IMG/VR virus record: IMGVR_UViG_3300032893_003184
Coordinates: 1-35,802 of that record
DNA from: a virus
Direction: 5' to 3' (one strand)
Length of the DNA stretch: 35,802 bases
Under the pieces are notes generated by a model. It had not been told where the DNA came from. It saw only the letters and a program-made list of their open reading frames with translations, and searched no databases. The translations under genes were made by a program, and so were the position numbers. Positions 1,091 to 24,720 of this stretch are shown in pieces. The number at the start of each line of letters is the position of its first letter. Positions within the stretch are counted from its first letter, which is position 1.

Positions 1091-1132
1091 GCAGGCATTA
1101 GGGAATAGGGAACAGGGAACAGGAGCTAGGGT
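1091..1132 (+). repeat. Heptamer array abutting the next start codon
   Basis: Six consecutive degenerate 7-mers fill the whole gap between the ATPase stop and the ATG at 1133. Typical units are ATAGGGA and ACAGGGA; the last units supply the AGGAG ribosome binding site at 1121-1125. One of about fifteen period-7 arrays in the window. Confidence 0.75.
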
Positions 1133-1366
1133 ATGAACATTTTCCGCAGTGATTTTAAGAAGAATCCACGGACCATTTTCCAACTGCTGAACCAACTGAT
1201 GGAGGGCATTGGCAGCCGCATTAAGGATGCCATTCCTGACGACGCGAAAGACCCTCGCCGGGCGCACCGCTGGCGCAGCGGCGACGCTTTGCGGCGCCGG
1301 CGAGCTCGCAACCAGATGGCGCGCGAGTCCCGCCGGATCAATTTTGCTAAGGCTCGCGGCTGGTGA
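1133..1366 (+). CDS. Small basic hypothetical protein
   Basis: A 77-residue protein with an amphipathic N-terminal half (about 1-40) and a very arginine-rich second half (RRRRAR near residue 58). I do not recognise a family. The start is supported by AGGAG at 1121-1125, seven bases upstream and inside a heptamer array. It lies three bases before the receiver-domain gene and is probably co-transcribed with it. The basic tail would suit nucleic-acid binding, but this is only inference from composition. Confidence 0.6.
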   Translation: MNIFRSDFKKNPRTIFQLLNQLMEGIGSRIKDAIPDDAKDPRRAHRWRSGDALRRRRARNQMARESRRINFAKARGW

Positions 1367-1369
1367 ATC

Positions 1370-1807
1370 ATGAACATCCTTATCGTTGAAGACCACGAAG
1401 AATTGGGGCGCGTGCTTGTGGAGAGCTTGGTCGCTATAGACCACCGAGCGGAACCGAGAGACCAAATCGTTGCCATCTGGACGGCGCGCGATGTCGAGAC
1501 GGCTGCAGGGATCCTGCCGCGCTGCTCGGCGGTGCTTTGTGACGGGCGGTTTCTCGCCACTCCGGAAGCAAAAGAGCCTTCAGAAAACTGGATGATCATC
1601 GCCTCGCATGCCGCGCGCCATGGCGTCCGTTTCATCCTCTACTCGGCTGACGAGGACGCTTTGCGGATGGCGCGATTGTGCGGCTTGGCGGCGTTTGCGA
1701 AACCCACGCCTGTCGAGACGCTCTACGCGGTATTGATGGGGCGGGGCGAGGGCGATCCACTTGAGAGCCGCGTGGAAGACGATCTGGGCGCGCCGCGGGC
1801 GGCGTGA
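1370..1807 (+). CDS. Stand-alone response-regulator receiver-like protein
   Basis: The 145-residue product begins with the receiver-domain signature MNILIVEDHEE (acidic residues E7 and D8). It has a hydrophobic strand ending in D58 (AVLCDGR), a strand ending in Y91-S92, and a K111-P112 pair. These match the acidic pocket, phosphoacceptor Asp, Ser/Thr and invariant Lys of CheY-like domains. No output domain follows; the last 25 residues are acidic and probably disordered. A single receiver domain inside an early phage operon is unusual. It could be phosphorylated by a host kinase or act as a binding decoy, which is inference. No histidine kinase is in the window. Confidence 0.72.
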   Translation: MNILIVEDHEELGRVLVESLVAIDHRAEPRDQIVAIWTARDVETAAGILPRCSAVLCDGRFLATPEAKEPSENWMIIASHAARHGVRFILYSADEDALRMARLCGLAAFAKPTPVETLYAVLMGRGEGDPLESRVEDDLGAPRAA

Positions 1808-1832
1808 AGAATTCCGTAACGCGAGGTGGACC

Positions 1833-2135
1833 ATGCCGGTTGTGGAACTGGAACTCAAGGCGAATGTTGATGACGCCGTGAAGGCGATCAGGGCGGTCAT
1901 TGACGAAGCGCATCAGGAGCTCGGGAAACTTCAGTGCGACGTCGAGGCGGAGGTTTTGCATGCGGCTTTTGAGTTTGGCAAGCGCGTGCAGCGGCTGGCC
2001 GATAAACAGGCCGAGGAATCGGCGCGCGGATCGCGCGTCATCGCCTACATGTTCTGCGGGTTCTGTGGCTTCGTCCTCGCGATGGTCGTCGCGGGCGTGC
2101 TGACGTTCTGGAAACTTGGACTCAAGGTGTGGTGA
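1833..2135 (+). CDS. Small membrane-anchored coiled-coil protein
   Basis: Reading from the ATG at 1833, preceded by GAGGTGG at 1823-1829, gives a 100-residue protein; an upstream ATG at 1761 overlaps the receiver gene and is less likely. Residues 1-65 are helical and charged with coiled-coil character. Residues about 70-95 form one transmembrane helix (AYMFCGFCGFVLAMVVAG), leaving a short C-terminal tail. No family is recognised. The topology suggests a tail-anchored inner-membrane protein. Confidence 0.62.
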   Translation: MPVVELELKANVDDAVKAIRAVIDEAHQELGKLQCDVEAEVLHAAFEFGKRVQRLADKQAEESARGSRVIAYMFCGFCGFVLAMVVAGVLTFWKLGLKVW

Positions 2136-2140
2136 CGGCA

Positions 2141-2377
2141 ATGGCTACGAATGCCCAACAACTGATTGACCCGCGGCTGCTGACAGCCATTAGTAACGAC
2201 CGAATCGATCTGGTGGGACAGTTATGCGCTTCAGTGGCGGATCTCCGGAAGGATCTCGGCCACCAGGTGGCGCTGCTCGATAAGTTCCGCCGCGACAAAG
2301 TCGAGCTCGACCAAACCGTCAAGGCGCTCTCCGCGCGCATCGCGAAGCTGGAAGAGGCAGCACATGGCGGCCATTAA
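2141..2377 (+). CDS. Small coiled-coil hypothetical protein
   Basis: A 78-residue protein from ATG 2141, with AAGGTG about 11 bases upstream; a GTG at 2129 would add four residues. The C-terminal 50 residues have heptad-like hydrophobic spacing (LDKFRRDKVELDQTVKALSA) and probably form a coiled coil. It overlaps the following zinc-ribbon gene by 14 bases, indicating a polycistronic early operon. Function unknown. Confidence 0.6.
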   Translation: MATNAQQLIDPRLLTAISNDRIDLVGQLCASVADLRKDLGHQVALLDKFRRDKVELDQTVKALSARIAKLEEAAHGGH

Positions 2378-2582
2378 GTGCCCGAAGTGCAAGGCAACTT
2401 TTGAACTGCATCCGACAGAGATTATCCCGGCCGGAGAGGCAGTCTACTGCGCCAACTGCGAAGGGATTACACGGCGTTCCCTGAACGGATACTGCGCGGC
2501 GTGTGGAAGTGATGCAACGACCAGCCTGGAGCGGTTGCTGGCTGGCTGCCTGCCCGAGTGCTTGGCGAGCGTTAAGGAGTGA
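2364..2582 (+). CDS. Zinc-ribbon-like small protein
   Basis: A 72-residue protein with three CxxC-type knuckles: CPKC near residue 6, CANC near residue 29 and CAACG near residue 44, typical of zinc ribbons. Such ribbons bind nucleic acid or stabilise small adaptors. No catalytic domain is attached. It overlaps the preceding gene by 14 bases and ends nine bases before the Gam gene. Precise role unknown. Confidence 0.68.
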   Translation: MAAIKCPKCKATFELHPTEIIPAGEAVYCANCEGITRRSLNGYCAACGSDATTSLERLLAGCLPECLASVKE

Positions 2583-4045: not shown

Positions 4046-4327
4046 ATGAAAGGCAGATACGCCGTGATCGGAAACGAGGTTGGCAAACTGGTCGAGCTGA
4101 AGAATGCGGCCTATGGAAACTCGTGGAACAAGGCAGGTGAGTTCCTGCAGCTTCTGTACCCCGCCGGCATGAAACCTGAGCAGTACCGCGACGCGCTGCT
4201 GATGGTGCGCATTTTCGACAAGATGATGCGGATTGCCAGCCGCAAGAATGCCTTCGGCGAGAATCCTTATCGCGACATCGCGGGGTACGGGATTCTCGGG
4301 GCATCGCTCGGGAGGAAGACGCAATGA
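4046..4327 (+). CDS. Small phage protein, possibly NMAD1/DUF1599-like
   Basis: A 93-residue protein with AAYGNSW near residue 21, RDALLMVRIFDKMMRIA near 48-64 and DIAGYGIL near 76. These resemble conserved positions of small all-helical phage proteins grouped with nucleotide-modification-associated domain 1 (YG-S/W, D-x3-R-x2-DK-x2-R, GY). The resemblance is from memory and weak. RBS TAGGAG at 4035-4040 fixes the start. It overlaps the next gene by four bases (ATGA). Confidence 0.65.
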   Translation: MKGRYAVIGNEVGKLVELKNAAYGNSWNKAGEFLQLLYPAGMKPEQYRDALLMVRIFDKMMRIASRKNAFGENPYRDIAGYGILGASLGRKTQ

Positions 4328-4518
4328 ACGAAAAGAGATTCGCTGTGGAAGCTGAAGTGAAAATGCGGGTGGAGGTGATTGTGACAGCACCCTCGTTCGA
4401 AGACGCACTGGCGCAGGCGCGCAAACTCAAGCCCAAAGACTTCGCGCGACCCACGGGCGATTGGTGGCCTCATGAGGCACAACTGAAGCTGAAGAGTGTG
4501 CGGCAGGAGGGACGGTGA
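4324..4518 (+). CDS. Small hypothetical protein
   Basis: A 64-residue protein beginning at an ATGA overlap with the previous stop. The first 40 residues read as a beta-strand plus helix unit (VKMRVEVIVTAPSFEDALAQ), like small ferredoxin-like folds. No catalytic motif is visible and the family is unknown. The four-base overlap supports coexpression with the upstream gene. Confidence 0.58.
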   Translation: MNEKRFAVEAEVKMRVEVIVTAPSFEDALAQARKLKPKDFARPTGDWWPHEAQLKLKSVRQEGR

Positions 4519-4575
4519 CGGCCAGAAAAGTGACGGACCGGGTTGCCCCATGCGACCCTGCAGAGGGTTTCGCTG

Positions 4576-4776
4576 CTATTTGCGGCGGGACACAAACTTT
4601 TGACTGAGATACGTCGGCAGATGGCGGAGATCGTCTTTCGGCAGCGTTTTCAACAGCTCGTCTCGGACGTCGGAAAATACCCTCGCGGCCGTTTTCGGGC
4701 CCGGTTTGGGGCCACGTCCGGCGAGGATTCCTGCCGCAAGCACGGCCGATACGATGTTGAACGATTCTTCATCCAT
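4576..4776 (-). CDS. Probable minus-strand small protein
   Basis: Within 4519-4913, a stretch without a convincing + strand gene, the minus strand encodes 66 residues starting MDEESFNIV, with GGAG nine bases upstream of its ATG (reading leftward). The sequence has an alanine-rich hydrophobic helix, a GRGPKPGPKTAARVF segment and a charged C-terminal helix. Third-codon positions are mostly G or C, as in neighbouring genes, whereas the overlapping + frame (4543-4794) reads as low-quality, arginine-rich sequence. An ATG at 4824 would add 16 residues. Orientation opposite to every other phage gene is the oddity. It may instead be noncoding. Confidence 0.48.
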   Translation of the reverse strand: MDEESFNIVSAVLAAGILAGRGPKPGPKTAARVFSDVRDELLKTLPKDDLRHLPTYLSQKFVSRRK

Positions 4777-4882
4777 GGTAGGCGTCTCCATTGACGTGGA
4801 ATGAATCTGGTACGCCTGAAGCATATCACCGATCTGGCAACCTTGTGTGCGGCGACATTCAAATGAACGGAGCGGAAAAAGA

Positions 4883-4910
4883 CAACTCGAAAATCGGCAA
4901 TCGCAAATCG
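4883..4910 (+). repeat. Heptamer array before ATG 4914
   Basis: Four degenerate 7-mers, for example AAAATCG and GCAATCG, run directly into the ATG at 4914. The array is open in the downstream reading frame, so it is either leader or an N-terminal extension if translation starts at 4863. Confidence 0.65.
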
Positions 4911-4913
4911 AAA

Positions 4914-5423
4914 ATGTCTCTCACGACTCAGCGCGCGCTTTACGCCGAGTGGGGGGAGTTCTCGCGCAACAACGCCGGGCCCGAGGGTTTGACGGAGCGC
5001 GATTGGCGGCTCTATTGGACCAACGGCCGGCTTGCGGCGCGCGGGCAGCGGTCCGTCGAGTCGTGGACCGATCTTTCCGAACGCAACGCCCGGTACCTGC
5101 TGAAGGTGCTGCGCGAAGAGACGGGCGAGGGGCCGGCGTATCGCGCCGAGTTAATTTGCCGGATGGCGCGCGCCGTCTGGAGTGATGAGGTTTGTTTGAG
5201 CGCTGTCACCATGCGGTCGTTTGACCGCTTTGGCGTTACCGATCTGCGAGATCTCTCGCCTGCCGATGCGCACGCGTTGATGGAAGAACTACTGAGCCGG
5301 ATCGCGCGCAAGGAAATCGCTATGGCGGATGACGATGCCAGCGAGGGCGCGGTCCTGGAACACAAGATCGAGGAAGTGCGCAATCGGTTTGCACCGCAGA
5401 GGCGGAAAGGCAGTGGACAGTAA
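4914..5423 (+). CDS. Early-region hypothetical protein (GemA position)
   Basis: From ATG 4914 the product has 169 residues; ATGs at 4863 and 4791 are in frame. I prefer 4914 because the upstream codons come from a heptamer array and encode a low-complexity stretch (IGNRKSK). The protein is helical, with TTQRALYAEWGEF at the start, an ESWTDLSERNARYLLKVLRE segment and an acidic C-terminus. Its position resembles Mu GemA (gp16, DUF1018), but I see no convincing sequence match, so function is left open. It ends 10 bases before the DUF2786 gene. Confidence 0.66.
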   Translation: MSLTTQRALYAEWGEFSRNNAGPEGLTERDWRLYWTNGRLAARGQRSVESWTDLSERNARYLLKVLREETGEGPAYRAELICRMARAVWSDEVCLSAVTMRSFDRFGVTDLRDLSPADAHALMEELLSRIARKEIAMADDDASEGAVLEHKIEEVRNRFAPQRRKGSGQ

Positions 5424-5433
5424 AGGACACCCC

Positions 5434-6150
5434 ATGGATCGTGCCATCATCGAGCGCATCGCGAAACTGTTGGAGCTGGCGAAGAGTCCCTGCAATGAGT
5501 ACGAGGCCGCGCTGGCGGCGGAGCGGGCGAAGGAACTGCTGGCGCTTCACAATCTTTCTGTGGGCGAAGTTGAATTGGCGGCAGCGGAGTCAGCAGAGAC
5601 ACACTTCCTCTGCCCAAAGAATCCACCGCGCTATCTATGGATTCTCGTGGCGGCTGTCAACACGCTATTCGATACGGCCAGCATTCTGACGGTGGAGGAC
5701 TTGTTCGGCCCAACCTGCATTGCATTGTGCGGCGTGAAGCAAAATGTGGAGGCCGCGGGCCTGACCTTGCACTACTTTCAGGATTCCATCAAGACCATGG
5801 CGCGGGCGCGCCGCGACCTGCTGACCATCAAGCGCAAGAGTTCGCAGAGGGCAAATCTGCAGCGCCGCATGTCCTATTGCTACGGCGCGGCATGCCGAAT
5901 CCATACCTCAATTATCGAGGCGAAAGCGAAGGCAGAGGCGAGCGAGCAGCGCCAGGCGATTGTGCGGGTCTCGAACGCCATCGCTCTGCGTCACCTAAAC
6001 GAGAAGTACCCGAAACGCAAGGCCAGCAAGCCACGCAAGCCCAACCTCGACGAGCGCGCGTTTCTGCTCGGTCACGCGGATGGCGCGCGGATCGACGCGC
6101 ATGGCGTGCATAAGAGCCTGCCGGCGGGGCCCGGAGGAGAACAAGGCTGA
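5434..6150 (+). CDS. DUF2786 domain protein
   Basis: Starting at ATG 5434 (AAAGGA at 5422-5427) the protein has 238 residues. Residues 1-43 match the DUF2786 signature: IIERIAKLLELA, then a spaced E-A-ALAAERAKELLALHNL helix. A larger domain follows (YLWILVAAVNTLFD; CGVKQNVEAAGLTLHYF) like that usually attached to DUF2786 in phages and plasmids. The C-terminal 70 residues are basic and end with a GHADGARI motif. The biochemical role of DUF2786 is unknown; it is common in Mu-like and other temperate phages. Confidence 0.82.
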   Translation: MDRAIIERIAKLLELAKSPCNEYEAALAAERAKELLALHNLSVGEVELAAAESAETHFLCPKNPPRYLWILVAAVNTLFDTASILTVEDLFGPTCIALCGVKQNVEAAGLTLHYFQDSIKTMARARRDLLTIKRKSSQRANLQRRMSYCYGAACRIHTSIIEAKAKAEASEQRQAIVRVSNAIALRHLNEKYPKRKASKPRKPNLDERAFLLGHADGARIDAHGVHKSLPAGPGGEQG

Positions 6151-6168
6151 AGGGTAAGGGGGGCGGAA

Positions 6169-6741
6169 ATGGTTGAGGCTTATCCACTGTATTGGCCGGA
6201 AGGATGGAAGCGCACGCCCTACGCAAACCGCGTGCATTCCGCCTTCAAGAAGACCACGGGAGTGGTCCGCGACTTTCTGCTTCATGAGATTAGCCTGCTG
6301 GGCGGCAGAAAAGTTATCATCTCCACCAATATTCCTACCCGCTTGGATGGTCTCTTTTACGCATCGTCGCGTGAACCGGAAGATCCGGGCGTGGCCATCT
6401 ATTTTGATTACGAGAAAAAGCCCATGTGCTTTGCCTGCGACCAATATCGCCTGGTGCGCGAGAATCTGCAGGCGGTGGCCATGACCATCGAAGCGTTGCG
6501 CGGTATCCAGCGCTGGGGAGCCTCGGACATGCTGGAGCGCGCCTTTCAGGGGTTCGCGGCGTTGCCGGCCGCCACTTGGAGATCGATTCTCGGGGTTGGT
6601 CCGGCCGCCACCTTGGCCGAGGCGGAACAAGCCTTCCGCAATCGCGTTCAGCAGGGCCACGCCGATCACGGCGGCAATGCCGATATGGATGCGCTGAAAC
6701 AGGCTCGCGACGAGGCACGGAAAGAGCTGGGAACGAATTGA
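6169..6741 (+). CDS. J-domain-like phage protein with altered HPD motif
   Basis: The 190-residue protein has a conserved N-terminal block (YPLYWPEGWKRT; KVIISTNIPTRLDGLFY; PEDPGVAIYFDY; RGIQRWGASDMLERAF) seen in phage and plasmid J-domain proteins. It ends with a short J-like helix pair (WRSILGVGPAATLAEAEQAF). Where DnaJ proteins carry the HPD tripeptide that activates DnaK, this one has H164-A165-D166, followed by HGGNADM. Loss of the proline suggests reduced or altered DnaK stimulation. The zinc-finger protein at 3142-3525 could be a functional partner, which is speculation. RBS is in GTAAGGGGGGCGG just upstream. Confidence 0.8.
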   Translation: MVEAYPLYWPEGWKRTPYANRVHSAFKKTTGVVRDFLLHEISLLGGRKVIISTNIPTRLDGLFYASSREPEDPGVAIYFDYEKKPMCFACDQYRLVRENLQAVAMTIEALRGIQRWGASDMLERAFQGFAALPAATWRSILGVGPAATLAEAEQAFRNRVQQGHADHGGNADMDALKQARDEARKELGTN

Positions 6742-6743
6742 CA

Positions 6744-6771
6744 GCGCTGAGAACTGAGGACTGAGAATCGG
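6744..6771 (+). repeat. Heptamer array at gene junction
   Basis: Four degenerate 7-mers (GAACTGA, GGACTGA and variants) occupy the gap between the J-domain-like gene and the ATG at 6779; the last unit yields CGGAG, five bases before the start. Confidence 0.65.
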
Positions 6772-6778
6772 AGTTGTA

Positions 6779-7144
6779 ATGCCTCTAGATCAGGAAAAGG
6801 AATGCGAGTGCGGATTTTGCGGTGGAGAGTCATTTGCCCAGAAGCGTCGCGACCAGCGATTCAAGAGGGGCCATGCGAAGCGGTATTTCAACTCCCGGTT
6901 AACGTACAGAAGGGCCGGTAGGCGCGCCAGGCTGGCCGTAGAAGAGTCTAAGAATCTTCTGTCGGCCCGTCGACGGTCCCGCACAATTTTCTGGCAGACA
7001 GGAGCCAAATTCGGGAGCGAGTTTGTGAACGGGAAATCGCGTTCCGTGCTGCGCGTCGATGTGTTGGGCGTCGTTACGGCGTTCCGGTTGGTAAAGCGTC
7101 CACAGATTCCGCAGATGACACACATTAAAGGAGTGGCGGCATGA
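6779..7144 (+). CDS. Small Cys-containing basic protein
   Basis: A 121-residue basic protein with an N-terminal CECGFCGG cluster and a KRGHAKRYF segment typical of small phage zinc-knuckle proteins. The rest is arginine-rich with one hydrophobic stretch (SVLRVDVLGVVTAF). The start follows CGGAG. It overlaps the next gene by four bases (ATGA). Nucleic-acid binding is plausible but unproven. Confidence 0.58.
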   Translation: MPLDQEKECECGFCGGESFAQKRRDQRFKRGHAKRYFNSRLTYRRAGRRARLAVEESKNLLSARRRSRTIFWQTGAKFGSEFVNGKSRSVLRVDVLGVVTAFRLVKRPQIPQMTHIKGVAA

Positions 7145-7323
7145 GCGACGAGGACCTTTTCGAGAATATCTGGCGTCAGCTTGAAGAACGTGGCGAGTGT
7201 AACGGCCTCCTGCTCCTGTTTATGCCGGAGGGGGTTTCCGATTGGCAGTGGAAACACATCCTTGCAGAAGTAGTGGCTGCGCGGGCCGAGGCGGCGGGGA
7301 GACAAACGTATGTCACTAAGTGA
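7141..7323 (+). CDS. Small acidic hypothetical protein
   Basis: A 60-residue protein beginning at the ATGA overlap with the previous gene. It looks like two amphipathic helices (DLFENIWRQLEERG; WKHILAEVVAARAEAAG) around a hydrophobic LLLLFMPEG strand. No family is recognised. It overlaps the next gene by 14 bases, consistent with a translated operon member. Confidence 0.58.
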   Translation: MSDEDLFENIWRQLEERGECNGLLLLFMPEGVSDWQWKHILAEVVAARAEAAGRQTYVTK

Positions 7324-7549
7324 ATCTTTGGAAGCCGAAGCAGTGCGGGTACTGGATAGCACCGAATGTCTCTGCGGCCGGGTCAAGACGCGCGGGCATT
7401 CGTTCTGCCGGCCTTGCTACTTCGCGCTGCCGGCTCAAACGCGTCAAAAGCTCTATACGCCGCTTTCCGAGGGCTACGCGGAAATCTGGGATGAGGCGCG
7501 CTGCTACCTGCAGGCGCAGGTGGATAAGGCAGGCCGGCGGGCGAAATAG
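7310..7549 (+). CDS. Small zinc-binding phage protein
   Basis: A 79-residue protein with CLCG near residue 20 and CRPCYFALP near residue 34, forming a likely four-cysteine zinc site. A conserved-looking LYTPLSEGYAEIWDEA helix follows. This pattern (CxCG, FCxxCYxxLP, then a Tyr-rich helix) recurs in small temperate-phage proteins of unknown function. It is the last gene of the early block; the stop is 75 bases before the Fis-like regulator. Confidence 0.66.
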   Translation: MSLSESLEAEAVRVLDSTECLCGRVKTRGHSFCRPCYFALPAQTRQKLYTPLSEGYAEIWDEARCYLQAQVDKAGRRAK

Positions 7550-7566
7550 GCGGGGAATTCGCGGAA

Positions 7567-7598
7567 TTGATAGTTTGTCATGACAAATAATCAATAAT
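7567..7598 (+). promoter_or_regulatory. Candidate promoter with operator palindrome
   Basis: A perfect 14-bp palindrome, TTTGTCATGACAAA (7574-7587), lies between a TTGATA (7567-7572) and an AATAAT (7593-7598). The 20-bp spacing is long for sigma70. A separate TTGACA occurs at 7612-7617 without a good -10. The AT-rich composition differs sharply from surrounding DNA, and this is the only real gap between the early genes and the Fis-like gene. Confidence 0.42.
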
Positions 7599-7624
7599 GC
7601 GGTTTGGGGTATTGACAACTACCC

Positions 7625-7921
7625 ATGAAATATTCATACCATGTGGCCGCGATGAACGATTGGCTTGAAATTCGATGCCCGATTCAAACGTCCCTTGCCG
7701 ATATCGAGGACATGATTGTGAGCCAGGTTGTTGAGAAGTGCGGTACGCAGCTCAAGGCCGCCTACGCCCTGGGCATTACTCCCGAGACAATTTCGCGGCG
7801 CCTCAACCGGCACCGTAAAAAGCTTGGCCGCCTGGCGAATTCGAATGATCACGAAACTGGCGCAGGTGATCACGCGAGCGATCCCCTCCCGCCAGGCGGC
7901 CGGGAGTCCAATTCGAGATGA
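7625..7921 (+). CDS. Fis-type HTH regulator, candidate middle/late activator
   Basis: A 98-residue protein whose residues 24-66 match Fis-family helix-turn-helix domains: an IEDMIVSQVVEKCG helix, then TQLKAAYALGITPETISRRL as the HTH. The C-terminal 30 residues are polar and probably disordered. It stands alone after the operator-like palindrome and just before the lysis genes, the place where Mu encodes Mor and C. I infer it activates middle or late transcription, though it is not a Mor/C homologue by eye. No strong RBS precedes ATG 7625; ATG 7652 is an alternative. Confidence 0.78.
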   Translation: MKYSYHVAAMNDWLEIRCPIQTSLADIEDMIVSQVVEKCGTQLKAAYALGITPETISRRLNRHRKKLGRLANSNDHETGAGDHASDPLPPGGRESNSR

Positions 7922-7942
7922 CGGATGCAAGATTTAAGATGA

Positions 7943-8241
7943 ACCGCAGAGACGCGGAGACGCTAAGCGTCAACCAATACGCCAACAACAAAAGGGGCGG
8001 GCGAGGCCTGGTGAGACAGCGTGTGCCAGCCGGGGGAGCTACGGGGAATCCCGGCCTTGCAGTGAGCCAGCACTTCACGTCTGTGACAGCGGCAGCGTGC
8101 GACAAAGGGCCAAGCGTAGCGTCGAATGGTCTGCCCAGACCAGCCGGAGCCTCCATCGGAGTGAATGCCCCAACCATGACATGTCCGCCGCCCGATCTGG
8201 CAGGGCGGCGGCTGGGCTTGGCGTCTCCGCGTCTCTGCGGT
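7943..8241. repeat. 299-bp element with perfect 21-bp inverted ends
   Basis: Bases 7943-7963 and 8221-8241 are perfect inverted copies (core CGCAGAGACGCG). The arms themselves read as heptamers. The 257-bp interior has further stems: 8127-8133 with 8136-8142 (7 bp), 8185-8193 with 8203-8211 (9 bp perfect, 9-nt loop) and 8030-8034 with 8050-8054. One + frame (7918-8301) is open but encodes compositionally odd sequence. Best read as a mobile palindromic element or a structured RNA. The stretch 7922-8342 otherwise holds no gene. Confidence 0.7.
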
Positions 8242-8305
8242 AAGAGTTTGCCCGCTCCGGGTCTAGGCGGAGTGGGAATCACCTCACAGTGGCCGCTGTG
8301 AGCTG

Positions 8306-8339
8306 AGGGTGGTGGTGGCTGCAGACACCACCATCACCC
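8306..8339 (+). other. GC-rich hairpin before the endolysin gene
   Basis: GGGTGGTGGT pairs with the CACCACCATCACCC side around a short loop, ending three bases before the GTG at 8343. No T-run follows. It could be an RNA control element or a weak terminator; it hides the region where a ribosome binding site is expected. Confidence 0.4.
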
Positions 8340-8342
8340 ATA

Positions 8343-9007: not shown

Positions 9008-9008
9008 T

Positions 9009-9484: not shown

Positions 9485-9536
9485 GGACACGTCGCAGCGT
9501 GCCGCTACGAGGGCGAACGCCGTTCGCCCCTACGGG
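9485..9536. repeat. Intergenic palindromic repeat
   Basis: Between the small membrane gene and the holin candidate lies a hairpin GGGCGAAC/GTTCGCCC (3-nt loop) flanked by CGCTACG and CTACGGG. Its right edge supplies GGGAG for the ATG at 9542. It resembles widespread bacterial palindromic intergenic repeats. Confidence 0.6.
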
Positions 9537-9541
9537 AGAAC

Positions 9542-10045: not shown

Positions 10046-10061
10046 CACAGGAGAGGGCGGG

Positions 10062-16266: not shown

Positions 16267-17711
16267 GACGAGCTGCCTTCACATTCGCGCTGGCTTTCTT
16301 GCTGCTGGCTCGCGTCGGGTTCGCGGGCGCAGCCTACAGGAGTTCTAGCGCAGTCGCGTATGCCAGCCGTACGAACACCACACTGACCGCACCTGCCGGC
16401 ATTCAGAATGGTGATGTGCTGCTGATTCATTTCCTGGTGGGGCAGGGTGGGTCTGCATACCCTACGGCCACTCCGCCCAGCGGGTTTACCGTTCTCACCG
16501 GCTTCCCGAAACAGTACAACTCGGATTCGTTCTATCTCAGCACCTACTGTTGGTACAAGATCGCGAACGGCGAATCCGGCAATTACACCGTCACTCATGC
16601 TGCTGGTACATCCGAGGGTTACATCGTCGCAGTCTCGGGCGGCTCGTCATCAGCTCCGACCGCGACCATCAATAGCGGGACTGGGACGACGACAACCGCG
16701 TCATCCATCACTACGACGACTGCGAACAGCTTCGTCATGTTCGTCAGTGAGGATTGGGGTGATAAGACAAACACCTTGACGGCGCCCACCGGCTCTACTC
16801 CAACATTCACAAGCCGCCTGAATCCCGGCAGTACGTCGGGAATTCTGTTTATCTGCGATGGGGTTCTGGCAACGGCTGGGAGCACAGGAGACAAAACCTG
16901 CACCAATAATAACAACACCCCTGATCCCTGGTCGGGCTACCTCATCAAGGTCGAGGCGAGCGCGGGCGCGGCGTACTCCGCTACGATCACCGAGACAAAT
17001 TCCGCGTCCGACAGCCTGGCGCGCCAGGTGGCGTTCAGCCGCGCGGATTCTGAAACTAATACGGTGTCGGTTTCCCTCGCGCGCCTCGTGGCCTTCAGCC
17101 GTGCCGCGAGCGAGACAAATACGGCCTCCGATGCCCTCTCGCGTGCGATTGGGTTCAATCGCGGCGCTTCGGAGACCAACGTGACGAGCGATGGTGAATC
17201 GCGTTCGGCAACGTTCGCCCGTGCCGCCAGCGAAATGTTGAGCTTCGGTGAGTCACTGACGGCCTCGAAAAACGGTGGTGCGCAGGCCTGGTCTCGAGCT
17301 CTGGTGGAAACGTTGAGCTTTTCGGATTCCATTTCGCGGCAAGTCAGCTTCGCGCGAGCGGCCTCAGACGCGAACTCGTTCAGCGATTCGCTAAGGCGCC
17401 AGGTGATGTTTGGCCGCACCCTCTCTGAATTTGACGCGGTGAGTGATTCCGTGGTTCGCCACGCTTCCTTTGGTCGTTCCGCGTCGGATGCCAGTATTTC
17501 CAGCGATACGCTGTTGCGCTTGGCGGCATTCGCGCGTCAAGGCGCTGAGAGTAATCCCGCGGACGATACTCTGGCGCGCCAAGCGCTCTTTGGCCGGGCG
17601 GTGTCTGAGTCCCATGCGGCGAGCGACCTATTACTGGCTGCCAAGAATGCACAGTTGTTCAAACGGCCGTTCATCTGGCTGTCGGCCGAATTCCACAGAA
17701 TGGAGTGGTGA
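16263..17711 (+). CDS. Secreted-like protein with eleven 20-residue repeats
   Basis: The 482-residue protein starts at a GTG overlapping the previous stop (GTGA). It has a signal peptide (AAFTFALAFLLLARVGFAGA) and a beta-sandwich-like domain at about 25-232 (IQNGDVLLIHFLVG; GYLIKVEAS), similar to lectin-like domains on phage tail and surface proteins. From 241 to 460 there are about eleven repeats of 20 residues with pattern FxRxxSExxxxSDxxxRxx; Phe falls at 258, 278, 298, 318, 363, 383, 403, 423 and 443. Such repeats may form a fibre or stalk. Placed inside the head module, it may decorate the capsid or act as a surface adhesin. Function unknown. Confidence 0.72.
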   Translation: MRRAAFTFALAFLLLARVGFAGAAYRSSSAVAYASRTNTTLTAPAGIQNGDVLLIHFLVGQGGSAYPTATPPSGFTVLTGFPKQYNSDSFYLSTYCWYKIANGESGNYTVTHAAGTSEGYIVAVSGGSSSAPTATINSGTGTTTTASSITTTTANSFVMFVSEDWGDKTNTLTAPTGSTPTFTSRLNPGSTSGILFICDGVLATAGSTGDKTCTNNNNTPDPWSGYLIKVEASAGAAYSATITETNSASDSLARQVAFSRADSETNTVSVSLARLVAFSRAASETNTASDALSRAIGFNRGASETNVTSDGESRSATFARAASEMLSFGESLTASKNGGAQAWSRALVETLSFSDSISRQVSFARAASDANSFSDSLRRQVMFGRTLSEFDAVSDSVVRHASFGRSASDASISSDTLLRLAAFARQGAESNPADDTLARQALFGRAVSESHAASDLLLAAKNAQLFKRPFIWLSAEFHRMEW

Positions 17712-17712
17712 C

Positions 17713-18303
17713 ATGAGAAAGAGATTGGCGTTGTTATTTCCCTTTGTGTTCGTTCTGGCGGGGTGCGCTCACCGAGGGGCTAAGGCCCCGGCACCTTCGG
17801 CCACCGCCCCGGCCGCGCAGTCGCTGCGTTCGGCCCTGCCCCTCATGCAGGACTTCGCGCGCTCCCGGCCTGAGAATCCCGTTCACGTTGTTGTTCGTCA
17901 CGCTGACGGTAGCGTCTTCTACGATCACTGGACGCACAACCTGCGGACCAACGCAGGGATCAACTGGCAGTACGGCCAGATGGCGGGCACTCCGGGTAGC
18001 GCCGCGCTATATATTGCCCTTAGCAGCGACACTACGACGCCCGCCGCCGCAGATACCACACTCACTGGCGAGATCACATCCGGCGGGCTGGCGCGCGCGG
18101 CCGCGACGCCGACGCATACCTCAAACGCGACGAGTTACACCCTGTCGTATACCTGGACTGCGAGTGCAACGCAGACGAGTGTCCAAAAGGCTGCGGTGTT
18201 CACTGCATCCACTTCGGGCACGATGCCCTTCGAAAACACGTTCACGTCCGTGACGATGGCTTCCGGCGACACCATCACGGTGACCTGGACTATCAACTTC
18301 TGA
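17713..18303 (+). CDS. Lipoprotein-like virion accessory protein
   Basis: A 196-residue protein starting at ATG 17713 (GGAG seven bases upstream) with a lipoprotein signal peptide: basic start, hydrophobic core and lipobox LAGC with Cys at 18. A proline/alanine linker follows. The rest is beta-rich and threonine-rich (YIALSSDTTTPAAADTTLTG; SYTLSYTWTASATQTSV; TITVTWTINF), like tail-fibre or adhesin domains of phages. A lipidated protein in a head operon could be a superinfection-exclusion or host-surface factor, or a misleading N-terminus on a structural protein. Confidence 0.68.
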   Translation: MRKRLALLFPFVFVLAGCAHRGAKAPAPSATAPAAQSLRSALPLMQDFARSRPENPVHVVVRHADGSVFYDHWTHNLRTNAGINWQYGQMAGTPGSAALYIALSSDTTTPAAADTTLTGEITSGGLARAAATPTHTSNATSYTLSYTWTASATQTSVQKAAVFTASTSGTMPFENTFTSVTMASGDTITVTWTINF

Positions 18304-18358
18304 CTTGGCGGGTTGGAAACGAAATCGGAGCTAGAGACAGAGGTTAAGGGGTAAAACG

Positions 18359-19960
18359 ATGGACCAAGATTTCGCGACACACGATGGCGTCAGGGTTCCG
18401 CGGGAAGACCACGGCTGGGCTCCGGCTGGATCGAGACCTTCTGACTGGAAGCTACCTCTGGACTCAACGCACATCGAGAGCGCGCTGGATATGTTCGCGC
18501 ATGCGAAGGACATCCCGGAAGATCAGAAGCATGCCGTGGCTGCAAAGATCGTGCGTTACGCCGAAAAGCACGGCGTCGCACAGCAGAAAATCGATGCCTT
18601 TAAAGAGCGGCACCTCAATGCATCACAAGCGGCGGAAGCTCCGCGGCTGCTTTTCACGCTTGCAGACTTCGCGCTGGGATCGGCTCCGCGCCTGCCCGTC
18701 GCGGTCACGGGGCAGTGGGTGAAGCTCACCGAGACCGGCAAACAGGTCATCAAGATCACGCTCGACGACATGCACACGATGCGCGCAAATTTCGCCAAGA
18801 AGGCGAATGGCGAAGTCAACGTGGACTATGACCACAAGAGTGAATCGGGCACGGAGATTGCCGAGCCCATTCCCTCGGCCGGCCGCATCACGGAGCTGAT
18901 GGAGCCGGAACCTTTCCTCGACCCGCAGGGTGTCCAGCGTCATGTCCTGTGGGGCGCTTACGAGCCCACCGACCGCGCGCGCCAATTGATCAAAGCGAAA
19001 GAGTACCGCTACACCAGTCCCGCACTGGGACCGGGGATCGACAAGGCCACCGGCAAGCCGCAGGGGATGACTCTTTCGAGTGTTGCCCTCACCAATCGTC
19101 CGGTCATCGAGCAGATGCCCGAAGTCCGGCTGAGCGATCCATCGTACCGGCTGATGGACGCGCAGTCAGTCCATACCGATCAGAATTTGTCCGGATCCCG
19201 AAGTTCGGAGTCCGGAGAAAAAACCGAGCCCGCATCGGCGGGAAAGGAGAAGAGCATGAAAAATCTGAAAGTCAAAAAGCTCGCCGATGGCGAGCACAAA
19301 GGGAAGTTCGGAGTGTTCGATGCCGATGAAATGGTCGGCCTCGCGGAACTCCCCGATGGCTGGGGTCCCAAAGACGACAAGGACACCAAGGAAGCTTGCG
19401 ACAAGGCCAGCGAATCCGCTCGCACCACGTTGCTCGCTGAAATCGGTGCCGTGGGCAAAGCGCCGGGCGAGATCAAGACCTTGATCGAACGCGGCGCGAC
19501 GGTGAACCAGGAAGCAACCCTACTCTCCGAGACGGTCAACGAGAAAGGCCGGGTCGATGTCGTGAAGCTCGATGAGCTGGTCGATTCCGGCGCCGTAAAA
19601 CCCAGCGCGATGCGGCGCGCCCTGGCCGCGGAAACCCGCGTGGCCGAGGCGTTCAAGGCGGGCAAGATTCGTCCCACCGCGTTGCAGCACGCCACGCGCC
19701 TCTGCCTTGCGGACGAAGGCGCATTCCAGACCTTCATCGAGAATGGCAAGCCTGTTGTGGATCTCACCTCGCAGGGCGTGGTGCGCGCGGCCGAGGACCT
19801 GAAAGGCGCGGCGCGCATGCAGCTCAGCGAGATGATCAAGAAGCGCATGGATGAGTCCCATGAGACTTTCGAGCTGGCGGAGCTGAATGTGGTCCGCACC
19901 AAAGAAGGCCTGGCGCTGTGGAACCAGGTTCGCGAAGAAGAAATGGAAAAGACGAAGTGA
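18359..19960 (+). CDS. Prohead protease plus scaffold (Mu gpI-like)
   Basis: A 533-residue protein in three parts. Residues 1-88 form a DUF6582-like helical domain (REDHGWAP; ESALDMFAHAKDIPEDQKHA). Residues 95-260 are a Mu I-type (U35) protease: NVDYDHK at 154-160, KAKEYRYTSPA near 212-222, and MTLSSVALTNRP with the likely nucleophile Ser at 240 or 241. After a low-complexity linker, residues 300-533 are the scaffold part (Mu Z-like). The protease matures the prohead and removes the scaffold. RBS AAGGGGT at 18346-18352. A nested start for the scaffold alone is annotated separately. Confidence 0.88.
   Translation: MDQDFATHDGVRVPREDHGWAPAGSRPSDWKLPLDSTHIESALDMFAHAKDIPEDQKHAVAAKIVRYAEKHGVAQQKIDAFKERHLNASQAAEAPRLLFTLADFALGSAPRLPVAVTGQWVKLTETGKQVIKITLDDMHTMRANFAKKANGEVNVDYDHKSESGTEIAEPIPSAGRITELMEPEPFLDPQGVQRHVLWGAYEPTDRARQLIKAKEYRYTSPALGPGIDKATGKPQGMTLSSVALTNRPVIEQMPEVRLSDPSYRLMDAQSVHTDQNLSGSRSSESGEKTEPASAGKEKSMKNLKVKKLADGEHKGKFGVFDADEMVGLAELPDGWGPKDDKDTKEACDKASESARTTLLAEIGAVGKAPGEIKTLIERGATVNQEATLLSETVNEKGRVDVVKLDELVDSGAVKPSAMRRALAAETRVAEAFKAGKIRPTALQHATRLCLADEGAFQTFIENGKPVVDLTSQGVVRAAEDLKGAARMQLSEMIKKRMDESHETFELAELNVVRTKEGLALWNQVREEEMEKTK
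19189..19216 (+). repeat. Heptamer array between protease and scaffold domains
   Basis: Four 7-mers (GTCCGGA, GTTCGGA and variants) encode a Ser-rich linker between protease and scaffold, about 40 bases before the internal scaffold start. Confidence 0.65.
19256..19960 (+). CDS. Nested scaffold protein (internal in-frame start)
   Basis: ATG 19256 is in frame with the protease gene (codon 300) and is preceded by a strong AAGGAG at 19244-19249, six bases away. Translation from here yields 234 residues made only of the scaffold part, the arrangement of Mu Z inside I and lambda Nu3 inside C. The product would be a helical internal scaffold for prohead assembly, later removed by the protease. The RBS quality is better than expected by chance inside a coding sequence. 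Confidence 0.75.
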   Translation: MKNLKVKKLADGEHKGKFGVFDADEMVGLAELPDGWGPKDDKDTKEACDKASESARTTLLAEIGAVGKAPGEIKTLIERGATVNQEATLLSETVNEKGRVDVVKLDELVDSGAVKPSAMRRALAAETRVAEAFKAGKIRPTALQHATRLCLADEGAFQTFIENGKPVVDLTSQGVVRAAEDLKGAARMQLSEMIKKRMDESHETFELAELNVVRTKEGLALWNQVREEEMEKTK

Positions 19961-19962
19961 GG

Positions 19963-20011
19963 CTTCAGGTGCCAGGCGCCAGGAGCCCCGAAGAGCCTGG
20001 CGCTTGGCGCC
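19963..20011. repeat. Inverted heptamer array
   Basis: Seven 7-mers follow the scaffold stop: TGCCAGG and CGCCAGG on the left, and their inverted forms (CCTGGCG, CTTGGCG) on the right, able to fold into a hairpin. CGCCAGG 19977-19983 pairs with 19996-20002. Confidence 0.65.
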
Positions 20012-20014
20012 GTC

Positions 20015-20071
20015 GTAGCGCCGGCCTTGAGGCCGGCACAAATCAGATGCCGGGCTCAAGCCCGGCGCTAC
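20015..20071. repeat. REP-like double hairpin B
   Basis: Two stem-loops (GCCGGCC/GGCCGGC and GCCGGGC/GCCCGGC) are separated by a short spacer ending CAGAT and bounded by outer arms GTAGCGCC and GGCGCTAC. Same architecture as 10730-10779. It ends directly at the AGGAGG ribosome binding site of the decoration gene. Confidence 0.75.
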
Positions 20072-20084
20072 AGGAGGAAATGAA

Positions 20085-20570
20085 ATGCCGTTTGAACAGG
20101 ATTTTGGCTACACGTACGAAGGCACCGTGCAGGTGGGAACGTTCTCCGCAGTGAAGCCAAGCTCGACCACCTACAAGGATGGCTTTGTGTTGGGCGCTGC
20201 CAAAAACGATCCGGTCCTGGGCATCATCCAGGACGGCATCTATCCCCATGGCAGCTCGGACTACAACAAGGGAAGCTACGGCAGCATTTCGAACGCTGCC
20301 TGGCCCGCCAACGCCCAGCCTGCCTCGCCGGTGGGCCTGAAGCGCAGCGTGCGGCGCTTTGGGCGTTCGCAGGCGATTGCAGCCGGCGCCTGCACGCGCG
20401 GGCATCGGGCGATTATTGCCGACAACCAGGGGCGGGTCGAGGACGTCGATGCGGATGCCGCGATTGTGGCCGGCACTGCGATCAACGTGCTCGGCACGTT
20501 CGAAACTCTGGCAACAAACGCGGGAGACGTGGTCTACATCTTCGTCAATCCGCACACGGAAACGAAGTAG
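20085..20570 (+). CDS. Head decoration protein (DUF2190/gpD-like)
   Basis: A 161-residue protein between protease/scaffold and major capsid, the usual place for a capsid decoration protein. It is glycine-rich and beta-rich with a VLGIIQDGIYP segment, IAAGACTRGHRAIIAD and a final AGDVVYIFVNP strand, like gpD/DUF2190 cement proteins. It would bind the outer capsid lattice. AGGAGG at 20072-20077 supports the start. Family call rests on position and pattern. Confidence 0.74.
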   Translation: MPFEQDFGYTYEGTVQVGTFSAVKPSSTTYKDGFVLGAAKNDPVLGIIQDGIYPHGSSDYNKGSYGSISNAAWPANAQPASPVGLKRSVRRFGRSQAIAAGACTRGHRAIIADNQGRVEDVDADAAIVAGTAINVLGTFETLATNAGDVVYIFVNPHTETK

Positions 20571-20670
20571 GACTGAAGCGGATGGCCGGCGCTGTCCGAA
20601 GCAAGTAAGTCCGCGCGCGGCGTTGCTTACGCCGGAATAAACGAGGCGCGCGGCGGGGGGAAGCGGTCGG

Positions 20671-20746
20671 GAGCAGGAAGTCAGGAGACAGAAAGAAGGC
20701 GCTGCTCTCCTGGCTCCTGAATCCTGGCTCCTGACTCCTTCTTTTC
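20671..20746. repeat. Inverted heptamer arrays before major capsid gene
   Basis: Four AGGA-type 7-mers (20671-20698) face six CTCCT-type 7-mers (20705-20746; for example GGCTCCT, GACTCCT). GTCAGGAG 20680-20687 pairs exactly with CTCCTGAC 20728-20735. The 185-bp gap upstream of the capsid gene also holds GCAAGTAA/TTGCTTAC near 20600-20640. No gene is seen here. Confidence 0.72.
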
Positions 20747-20755
20747 CGAGGTTCC

Positions 20756-21703
20756 ATGGATAAGCAAATTGTCCACGTTGACGCGCTCGACACGCGAATC
20801 AGCGTGGCCTATCAGAACGCGATGTTCATTGCCGACCAGGTGATGCCTATCGTCGGCACGGAAACTCTCTCCAACAAATTCGCTCGGTGGTCCAAACAAG
20901 CGTTCCGAGCGGTGGTCGATACCCTGGATTCGGGAGGCTACCCCAGGGCCTACAACATGTCGATGGAGCCCTATGGCTTCTTCGACGCCAAGGGGCACGG
21001 CGTGGAATCTCCGCTAAAGGATGCTGTACGGAACAACGCGGATAATCCGGCCGAGGTCGACATTCAATACCGCAACTTCGTCCAGGGGCTCATCGCCCTC
21101 GCGCGCGAAGTTGAGGTGATCAGCCTCATCAACTCCACCAACATCACGCAAAACACCACACTGTCGGGTACCAGCCAGTGGTCCAACTCGGCCTCGAACC
21201 CGATTGCCGCTATCCGCGCACAGATCCGTACCATCCAGCAGGCGATTGGCGGCGTTCCTCGCAACCAGTTCCGGCTGCTGCTTCCGGGCCCGGTGTTCGA
21301 TGCGCTGATCGATAACTCCACCGTTCGCGACTACGTCAAGTACACCCAGAATTTGCTGGACGACTCGATTGAACCCAAGGACCTTGCCGCCGCACTTAAG
21401 ATTGGCAAGGTGGTGATCGCTGAGAACGTGGGCTTGACCAGCGCGGAAGGCCAGACCGATGCCATGGCCTTCAACTGGCCCAGCGCTGCGGGCGCTTCCA
21501 TGGCGCTGCTGTATTTCTGCACCGCGGCGCCGGCGCCGCTCACGCCGAATTTCGGCTACATCTTCCGGCCGAAATCCGAGTACTTCCCGTTGCGGACCGT
21601 CCGCGACGAACACTCTCGCAGCACCATTTTCATTTCCGAGGAATATCGCGACACGGTTCTGGTTGAACCGAACGCTGCATTCCTCTGGCTGAATCCCATT
21701 TAG
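20756..21703 (+). CDS. Major capsid protein
   Basis: A 315-residue protein of Mu gpT size and position, following protease/scaffold and decoration genes. Features fit HK97-fold capsids: an N-terminal arm, a long spine-helix region (EVDIQYRNFVQGLIALAREV), NQFRLLLPGPVFDALIDN and an A-domain segment (AALKIGKVVIAENVG), ending with FGYIFRPKSEYFPLRTV. No protease-cleavage delta domain is evident; the scaffold is separate. GAGG at 20748-20751 is the RBS. Confidence 0.86.
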   Translation: MDKQIVHVDALDTRISVAYQNAMFIADQVMPIVGTETLSNKFARWSKQAFRAVVDTLDSGGYPRAYNMSMEPYGFFDAKGHGVESPLKDAVRNNADNPAEVDIQYRNFVQGLIALAREVEVISLINSTNITQNTTLSGTSQWSNSASNPIAAIRAQIRTIQQAIGGVPRNQFRLLLPGPVFDALIDNSTVRDYVKYTQNLLDDSIEPKDLAAALKIGKVVIAENVGLTSAEGQTDAMAFNWPSAAGASMALLYFCTAAPAPLTPNFGYIFRPKSEYFPLRTVRDEHSRSTIFISEEYRDTVLVEPNAAFLWLNPI

Positions 21704-21756
21704 GGATTAGAGATTGGGGGCCAGGGACTGGGCAAAACCCCTGACCCTGGCCCCGA
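21701..21756. repeat. Inverted heptamer array after major capsid gene
   Basis: Eight 7-mers: GGG-type units (TAGGGAT, CAGGGAC) then CCC-type units (GACCCTG). GGGGCCAGGG 21717-21726 and CCCTGGCCCC 21745-21754 are perfect inverted copies with an 18-nt spacer, so a strong hairpin forms 3' of the capsid message. Confidence 0.75.
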
Positions 21757-22048: not shown

Positions 22049-22076
22049 GAGCGCTGAAGACTGAGCGTGGAGTTCC
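22049..22076 (+). repeat. Heptamer array before DUF1320 gene
   Basis: Four 7-mers (GAAGACT, GAGCGTG and variants) end one base before the ATG at 22078; the last units supply GGAG. Confidence 0.6.
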
Positions 22077-22536: not shown

Positions 22537-22547
22537 AAGGAAAGGAG

Positions 22548-22610
22548 GGCAGACGGCAGACGGTAGACGGCACAGGAAGGTGAGGCCGTTTACCGCGTGC
22601 TGTCTACCAC
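22548..22610. repeat. Inverted heptamer array abutting ATG 22611
   Basis: Nine 7-mers (GGCAGAC, GGTAGAC and variants, then inverted forms such as CTACCAC) run exactly to the ATG. GGTAGACGGCAC 22562-22573 pairs with GTGCTGTCTACC 22597-22608 at 11 of 12 positions. The hairpin lies where the RBS would be. Confidence 0.72.
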
Positions 22611-23267: not shown

Positions 23268-23272
23268 CGGCA

Positions 23273-23827
23273 ATGCCCTGGCAAAGCAAATATCGCGCAA
23301 GGTTCGTGAAGCCGCTGGTGGCGCAGGTGATGGCTATCATCCGCCGCGACATTGCCGCTGCGCTGGCGGATGTGAATCCGGCCGCGAAGTATCCGGCCTT
23401 TGCCCAGTACGACCTGAGCCTGCTTCCGGTGATCAATTTCCCGGCCATTCTGCTGCTGCCGCAGTCGGTGGAGTTTGACAAAGACGCGCAGGAGACGCGC
23501 CATTATTCCGTGCGCCTTTACTGCTCGCTGGCGGTGAGGCATCAGGACCCCAACCAGGTAGCGGGGATCCTGGAGGATTACATCGCGGCCGTGGACGAGG
23601 TCCTGAATTCCGCCTGGGAACTGACGCCGGGCGATTTCTACCGCACGGACTTGGAGCTGCCTTCGCCGCCCTGGCCGGCGGGCGCGCTCTCGCCAGGCTT
23701 GCAGGCGGGCTCGCTGATGTTTCTGTTTTCGGAGGGACATGCGTACGACGAGATGCGGCGCGTGTCACAAGGACTTTTTGCCAAGACGGCAACCTGCTCG
23801 ATTCTCTGCGAGCTGGAGGAAACCTAA
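23273..23827 (+). CDS. Minor tail / tail-terminator-like protein
   Basis: A 184-residue alpha/beta protein: a helical N-terminus (KPLVAQVMAIIRRDIAAALA), NFPAILLLPQSVEF, RHYSVRLYCSLAVRH and a final beta strand. Size and position between the tail-completion and tail-tube genes are those of tail terminators (gpU-like) or DUF1834/gp37-type proteins. The call rests mainly on synteny. Confidence 0.65.
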   Translation: MPWQSKYRARFVKPLVAQVMAIIRRDIAAALADVNPAAKYPAFAQYDLSLLPVINFPAILLLPQSVEFDKDAQETRHYSVRLYCSLAVRHQDPNQVAGILEDYIAAVDEVLNSAWELTPGDFYRTDLELPSPPWPAGALSPGLQAGSLMFLFSEGHAYDEMRRVSQGLFAKTATCSILCELEET

Positions 23828-23830
23828 TAA

Positions 23831-23845
23831 GGCCGAGACTCGGCC
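23831..23845. other. Perfect GC palindrome
   Basis: GGCCGAG-A-CTCGGCC lies between the tail-terminator stop and the AAGGAG RBS of the tail-tube gene. Likely a small RNA hairpin; no T-run. Confidence 0.5.
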
Positions 23846-23860
23846 GGAAGGAGTTTGACG

Positions 23861-24661
23861 ATGTCAAGCATAGTAGATGCAGCGTATATCCACCAGGGGC
23901 CGGGCAAGGTATTTATCGACGTGGCCGTTCCGTTGAGCGGCAGCCGGCTGATCATCGATTCCAATGGCGACCCACTGCCGGCGGCGAACTTTACTGCGTG
24001 GGCGGCCACGACGGCCTACAACATCGGTGACCAGCGGTTAGACTCAAATGGAAACGTTCAGCAGATCGTGGACCGCACAGGGGACTACAAAAGCGGCGCG
24101 GAAGCGCCAGCTTGGTCCACCAACTACGGCGCCCTGACAGTGGATAATCATGTGACCTGGAAGTGCGTTGGCGCGCCCACCGGGGGTACCTTCATGGGCG
24201 CTTCCGAAGGCGCCAAGACGCTCACTCTGGGGCCCAAGATCGAAGAGCTCACGGCGGATGAAGAGTTAGGCCCTATCGACGCGCGCGGGACTGCCGAAGC
24301 GCACGAGATCGACGCCGTGCTTAAAGAGTCTGATTTTGCGAAACTCAAGCTCGCCTTCACCACGGCCGTCTTTGCAACCGGGACAGATCCCAATCTGCCA
24401 GCAGGCGCTCAGAATTACGAAGAGCTCAGTTTTGGCGGGGTCAGCAACATCCCCAACCACAGTATTGCGGTGATTTCGCCTTCTCGCACGGCAACCGGAA
24501 AATTCGTGATTGCGCAGCTCTATAAAGCCTACCAGTCCCAGGCCATCAAGCTTGCGATCCAGCATGGGAAGGAAACCACCTACTCCGTGAAGTTCAAGGG
24601 CCTGACCATCTCCGACCGGCCGGTGGGCGACAAGGTTGGGAAGATCTACCGGCAAGTGTAA
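23861..24661 (+). CDS. Major tail tube protein with inserted binding domain
   Basis: I use ATG 23861 (AAGGAG 23848-23853) rather than a TTG two codons earlier, giving 266 residues. The N-terminus and the C-terminal half (TLGPKIEELTADEELGPID; YSVKFKGLTISDRP) fit siphovirus tail-tube proteins. Residues 47-104 are an insert rich in Trp and Gly (AWAATTAYNIGDQ; GAEAPAWSTNYG; DNHVTWKCVG). It resembles chitin-binding/fibronectin-like decoration modules and recurs in the protein at 29125-31044. No sheath gene precedes it, supporting a non-contractile tail. Confidence 0.8.
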   Translation: MSSIVDAAYIHQGPGKVFIDVAVPLSGSRLIIDSNGDPLPAANFTAWAATTAYNIGDQRLDSNGNVQQIVDRTGDYKSGAEAPAWSTNYGALTVDNHVTWKCVGAPTGGTFMGASEGAKTLTLGPKIEELTADEELGPIDARGTAEAHEIDAVLKESDFAKLKLAFTTAVFATGTDPNLPAGAQNYEELSFGGVSNIPNHSIAVISPSRTATGKFVIAQLYKAYQSQAIKLAIQHGKETTYSVKFKGLTISDRPVGDKVGKIYRQV

Positions 24662-24663
24662 AG

Positions 24664-24720
24664 GCAGGGGCTGGGGGATGGCGAAACCCCTAGCCGCCTG
24701 CTCCGCGCAAGCGCTAGGGG
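24664..24720. repeat. Heptamer array with inverted arms after tail-tube gene
   Basis: Units GCAGGGG and CTGGGGG followed by inverted AACCCCT. CCCCTAGC 24687-24694 pairs with GCTAGGGG 24713-24720. Confidence 0.62.

Follow-up and report, generated by a model that had tools for sequence, protein, structure and literature searches.

The degenerate heptamer arrays at many gene junctions of the virus record IMGVR_UViG_3300032893_003184 (IMG/VR; its whole 35,802 bases were analysed and are called the window here) are probably phage-borne members of a host-type class of repeats, written by a host-linked process with the phage as carrier. They have a seven-base period, lie in gaps or linkers, share heptamers with the host chromosomes of related phages, are gained and lost patchily among relatives, and are replaced at fixed junctions. 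The initial annotation had taken the family to belong to the prophage itself, a view that we abandon, since host chromosomes have the same array class and the heptamers match prophage to host. Its proposal of an undescribed expansion process at gene boundaries survives in part: rapid change does occur there (between the window and its close relative G001, and between the related phages L054 and L059), but the arrays are not specific to prophages.

Whole-genome lag counts dilute the periodicity too far, so non-coding and local tests are required. In the non-coding DNA of the window (about 2.2 kb) lag-7 identity was 0.329, whereas lag 6 gave 0.276, lag 8 0.292 and lag 9 0.257; in its coding DNA lag-7 identity was 0.252. 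A local test for segments scoring at least 9, with locally shuffled sequence as control, found 10 lag-7 segments against 0.45 in the shuffles. Non-harmonic lags gave 0-3 segments in the same test, lag 14 gave five and lag 21 six; a clear excess is confined to lag 7 and its multiples. The autocorrelation check suggested by the initial annotation thus came out in its favor, with lag 7 exceeding lags 6, 8 and 9 as well as the local shuffles. Tandem Repeats Finder (TRF) independently reported period 7 at 1100, 4887, 6747, 14622, 15012, 19966, 20707 and 22548. Sequence check, lag tests and TRF together confirm period-7 arrays where they had been annotated, 11 of the 14 being solid (lag-7 score matched by at most two of 400 shuffles) and three (at 21701, 22049 and 24664) weak; we found a further array at 15007-15029. 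The arrays are as follows:

1091-1132 (+), AGGGAAC/AGGGAAT array occupying the gap from the AAA ATPase stop (1089) to ATG 1133; lag-7 24/35, 0/400 shuffles, TRF 1100-1123
4883-4915 (+), AATCGNA array extending into ATG 4914; TRF, lag and shuffle tests
6744-6771 (+), CTGAGAA array in the gap from stop 6741 to ATG 6779; TRF, lag and shuffle tests
12968-12995 (+), CGATTGT array (reverse complement of the AATCG type) in the terminase-portal gap up to ATG 12997; lag and shuffle tests
13168-13204 (+), GGCAG(A/T)C array in the portal N-terminal linker; lag and shuffle tests
14622-14660 (+), GGCAAAA array in a linker of the Mu-portal/head-protein gene; TRF score 57, lag and shuffle tests
15007-15029 (+), ACATTCC array in the same Mu-portal/head-protein gene; TRF 15012-15029, 100%; lag test
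15507-15527 (+), short CAGGAG-type array at a gene end; shuffle test
19189-19216 (+), degenerate TCCGGA-type array within the Mu protease-like gene; 1/400 shuffles
19963-20011 (+), CAGGNGC array with inverted partner (hairpin), 3' of the protease-like gene; TRF, lag and shuffle tests
20671-20746 (+), CAGGAG(T/C)C array with inverted partner, 5' of the major capsid protein gene; TRF, lag and shuffle tests
21701-21756 (+), weak AGGGATT-type hairpin 3' of the capsid gene; 7/400 shuffles
22049-22076 (+), weak CTGA(A/G)-type array ahead of ATG 22078; 20/400 shuffles
22545-22610 (+), GGCAGAC array with inverted partner, ending at ATG 22611; TRF, lag and shuffle tests
24664-24720 (+), weak G-rich hairpin 3' of a tail gene; 9/400 shuffles, lag 6 as good as lag 7

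The placement in gaps or linkers was correctly described: of the 14 arrays first listed, 11 are intergenic and three lie in coding sequence, and several stop 0-2 bases before a start codon. Across 15 array-bearing loci, 45% of array bases were non-coding against 12% of sequence, by a crude open reading frame (ORF) call. The claim that each array has its own heptamer holds less well: CAGGAG-, GGCAG-, AATCG- and CTGAG-type words recur by eye, some of them on opposite strands; likeness of the computed consensus within the window is near chance (7% of pairs alike, slightly above it). In L006 (3612-3705) a heptamer array at an ORF start is read as the N-terminus (MTGQIENRNSKLETR...), and such array-derived N-termini are a possible source of mis-annotated starts.

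The host link comes from relatives. A set of about 100 related loci (1.64 Mb, mostly phage contigs, some with host flanks) contained 192 segments of period 7. Period 8 accounted for another 55, and periods 4, 5, 10, 11 and 13 for 3-15 each. In 14 host genomes (985 kb in total, with 15-116 kb sampled per genome for densities) we found 42 period-7 arrays, against 2-3 at lags 4, 5, 10, 11 and 13 and nine at lag 8. For each array-bearing, host-assigned prophage we looked for one of its common heptamers across the 14 genomes. The prophage's own host ranked top in all five cases, with 12-161 matches (counts that include overlapping registers and a minority of matches located in the contig of the prophage itself, in one case 15 of 68), and the word was rare or absent in most of the 13 others:

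L020, CAGTAGC: own host 161, next 45
L024, GTCCGTN: own host 68, all others 0
L028, CTTTAAN: own host 62, sister species 26, elsewhere at most 3
L031, CATTCCG: own host 12, next 3
L025, GAAAANA: own host 30, next 1

Two of the five matched hosts are Cerasicoccus (Verrucomicrobiota), so that the host link extends beyond the Acidobacteriota. Because the arrays of these related phages use host-chromosome words, the phage seems to record passively a repeat process that is widespread among bacteria. The window itself has a wide set of words; its main one, AGGAGYC, was found in array form in 36 of the 200 genomes searched within one Acidobacteriota class (the reversed control in almost none), and GGCAGNN arrays were found in 19 of 149 Acidobacteriota genomes.

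Among the phages the arrays are patchy. Array-dense ones, with 6-21 segments per 10 kb, are L024, L039, L041, L042, L054, L056 and L059. Close relatives of the window divide: G001 has nine period-7 segments, and G002 and G003 (capsid protein 64% identical) have zero. When the array-rich state was mapped on the branches of a terminase tree of 114 phages it required 17 changes, at least 12 of them forced by well-supported branches, compared with 26 for shuffled labels. All six phages of the window's own clade are array-rich; outside it, rich phages often stand singly among array-free sisters. L095, for instance, has eight arrays where most of its relatives at 69-75% nucleotide identity have none.

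Fixed junctions reveal how the arrays turn over. The 66-base array before ATG 22611 is missing in G001, whose stop and start codons overlap there (TGATG). The portal linker array (13168-13204) is longer in the window than in G001 by an in-frame 21 nucleotides, equal to three heptamers or seven codons. Where the portal/head gene ends (15507-15527) the window has a CAGGAG-type array and G001 a GAAACTG array, and after the capsid gene (21701-21756) both have hairpins with differing heptamers. Between L054 and L059 the aligned genes are 82-93% identical, and most array junctions have other heptamer hairpins or small repeats; 37% of bases are alignable in arrays versus 83% elsewhere, and other related pairs tested were alike. 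An exception is L054 4500-4690, a junction that keeps its array in L059. In three near-identical pairs (L042/L043, L091/L092 and L088/L089) we found no unit changes. Since near-identical pairs are unchanged and diverged pairs replaced, the arrays outpace the genes without being hypervariable. Several heptamer-free junctions (L054 6000-6340 and 10240-10450, L059 7070-7225) hold small hairpin repeats (CCCCACCC...GGGGCACCC, TCATCCCGAGCGGAG); with junctions often filled in this way, the gaps seem to gather several repeat kinds.

The internal structure of the arrays narrows how they might be made. An inverted partner lies within 90 bases of 33% of 169 arrays, while randomly placed positions gave 1.4%; the window's examples are the arrays at 19963, 20671 and 22545. 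Heptamers were alike in 17% of array pairs within a phage and 4% between phages (highest of 1000 permutations, 7%). Unit order or multi-unit blocks were shared between arrays of one phage at the level of chance (69 pairs, versus 65.6 after unit shuffling). Since the arrays within a phage have words in common while their unit order differs, a fixed cassette that is copied from place to place is disfavored, and because unlinked loci share words, so is slippage from arbitrary seeds alone. Variation is concentrated in two of the seven columns (0.78 versus 0.65), which we set aside as evidence because duplicated variant units would produce the same pattern. A search of Rfam gave zero matches.

We suggest that a host-linked process would repeatedly make and swap runs of about 3-6 near-identical heptamers drawn from a genome-specific set, the direct run often being followed by an inverted run able to fold as a hairpin. 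The phage would gain arrays while resident or replicating in its host, and they would persist where the damage is slight: in intergenic gaps as far as a start codon, or in protein linkers whose reading frame is kept. The process may be host DNA synthesis or repair, with slippage in a seven-base register and template switching for the inverted arm. The arrays would then be mainly passengers for the phage, with an expression role possible for single arrays, and we infer a host-type origin for the window's own arrays as well.

Several observations weigh against this interpretation. The word match rests on relatives rather than on the window's own host. Array density in host and prophage was not significantly correlated over 14 pairs (rho 0.24, p 0.42), so the two match in vocabulary and not in amount; some array-carrying hosts have array-free prophages, and prophages that do bear arrays have them at a higher density than the chromosomes in which they reside. 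The constancy of the near-identical pairs points the same way, and the sharing of a heptamer by unlinked loci of one genome is unexplained by pure local slippage. An activity dedicated to the task would account for shared words without shared unit order. It would write degenerate heptamers, with a few fixed bases and one or two free positions, at gene ends in Acidobacteriota, building every array anew on a genome-specific template and stamping the host vocabulary on resident phages; at present this is a speculative proposal to which we would give only a small chance.

A possible objection is that the arrays have a function for the phage, as ribosome-binding leaders, as terminators or as hairpins that stabilise RNA, maybe bound by a heptamer-binding host protein such as one of the cold-shock or S1 type. 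Their intergenic position up to start codons and their frequent inverted partners fit this, as does the translational role proposed for the TAACTGA repeats directly upstream of start codons in Beggiatoaceae (PMC4679880). Yet both genes flanking the 22545 array are intact in G001 without it, relatives hold different heptamers at the same junction, G002 and G003 do without arrays, and some arrays lie within coding linkers, with both strands used; we therefore think a functional explanation unlikely. That the arrays are instead made at phage gene boundaries by a phage-encoded, host-independent expansion would agree with their greater density in prophages than in chromosomes and with the uniformly rich clade of the window, but hosts share heptamers with their prophages and the spread among close phage relatives is patchy, which makes this very improbable.

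Small mobile palindromic elements, of the repetitive extragenic palindromic (REP) or bacterial interspersed mosaic element (BIME) kind and moved by a host Y1 transposase (REP-associated tyrosine transposase, RAYT), would likewise give hairpins of host-specific sequence dispersed at gene ends; Y1 transposases occur in 13 of the 14 hosts, and RAYT-like genes have been reported from Acidobacteria (PMC3733652). However, the densities of arrays and of Y1 transposases did not go together (rho 0.19, p 0.52), CTTTAA arrays abound in Cerasicoccus arenae (G012), which has no Y1 transposase match, and the chance-level sharing of unit order is contrary to cassette copying, so we regard such elements as a very unlikely source. 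For chance or assembly artefact there is no positive support, beyond the ease with which short degenerate arrays are over-read by eye and the weakness of three listed ones. It is refuted by the lag comparison, and arrays recur both in independent metagenomes (L042 and L043 are identical) and in the records of genomes from named strains of Cerasicoccus; its probability is close to negligible.

Degenerate heptamers in tandem within intergenic DNA are familiar from the short tandemly repeated repetitive (STRR) sequences of heterocystous cyanobacteria, to which the initial annotation had likened the arrays. The likeness holds at the level of class and by description; STRR repeats are cyanobacterial and chromosomal. 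Heptamers are the most abundant intergenic tandem repeats across a wide range of prokaryotes, with unclear function, according to the SPADE survey (PMC6344855). The repeats described there resemble ours in period, intergenic position and wide occurrence; the survey deals with prokaryotic genomes, and a phage setting, host matching and turnover do not figure in the part that we drew on. Our arrays fall within this prokaryotic intergenic class, having a seven-base excess, being enriched outside coding sequence and being dispersed in the genomes of the relatives' hosts. Slippage in a seven-base register has been proposed before for the heptamer excess (discussed in PMC4692102). The GGGNATC and GGGGA(C/T)T repeats of Xanthomonas and Nostoc (PMC4692102) are also degenerate and intergenic, have about four units, some inverted, and vary much at the same gene pairs between related species. 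They use one G-rich word per genome and are proposed to form G-quadruplexes, whereas our phages have several words per genome, many not G-rich; only the AGGGAAC/AGGGATT-type arrays approach them, and we rejected that identification.

The TAACTGA repeats of Beggiatoaceae, cyanobacteria and Bacteroidetes (PMC4679880) abut start codons and are patchy across phyla, and ACTGA-type arrays were found in phage L042 too, but theirs is a single heptamer, with related heptamers rarely repeated, and is chromosomal (a few on plasmids). REP/BIME sequences with RAYT (PMC2817692, PMC3733652) are extragenic, palindromic and host-specific; they differ in their GTAG/CGTC tags, linked transposase and want of a seven-base tandem register, and a fixed palindromic unit of that kind was rejected because arrays agree in unit order no more often than expected by chance. 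The tandem repeats of Borgs (PMC9879509) change fast on an extrachromosomal element and lie both between genes and in frame within them, but their units are perfect, are not fixed at seven and are virtually absent from the host, unlike the degenerate, host-shared heptamers here. We also rejected phase-variable simple sequence repeats, since the units are degenerate and length is constant in the three near-identical phage pairs. We found no description of the heptamer class in phages, or of a phage-host word match, in the open-access literature; the intergenic class is known, and its phage setting and host-vocabulary match are apparently undescribed.

The arms of the 7943-8241 element had been counted with the family; they are dropped, as their period is 8 (CGCAGAGA/CGCGGAGA) and lag 7 there is no better than in shuffled sequence. 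This 299-base element is bounded by 26-nucleotide inverted repeats, 96% complementary. CGCAGAGA-like arms occur at L054 4524-4670 and at L059 2140-2287; L039 and L041 have related CACAGAGG arrays. One phage, L012, has thirteen period-8 arrays (GATCGGGT type) alongside six period-7 arrays at 4118-20886; the period-8 arrays are a sister class with an eight-base register.

The carrier appears from its gene products to be a Mu-like transposable phage, with a Mu-type portal (Portal_Mu, 1e-36), a Mu-like protease (Mu-like_Pro, 1.7e-23) and a terminase (Terminase_6N, 4e-9). An AAA ATPase gene lies at the left end of the window, and the right end gave a weak helix-turn-helix match; a transposase gene was not recognised in the record. 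Because relatives in a terminase profile search of cellular genomes were mostly Acidobacteriota prophages (the nearest being in metagenome bins of Candidatus Angelobacter and Acidobacteriaceae), the host is probably a soil acidobacterium, an assignment at phylum level only; a capsid-protein scan of bacterial genomes gave zero relatives. Two further repeats were seen: a 22-base direct repeat in three copies (CACTTACTGCCACTCAGNCCCT; 34762-34828), upstream of the right-end helix-turn-helix gene and possibly a set of regulator or transposase binding sites, and a 60-base tandem repeat of 2.6 copies (16991-17143) within the long ORF 16263-17711.

Phages that move between hosts are natural reporters, in which arrays can be seen arising, disappearing and switching words at fixed junctions. 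Their arrays link the word used to the host, so that host effects are separable from lineage effects, and comparison of array-rich with array-free hosts offers a route to the generating enzyme. The words may also serve as a signature for assigning uncultured phages to hosts, and the phage set makes the question of heptamer-repeat function testable.

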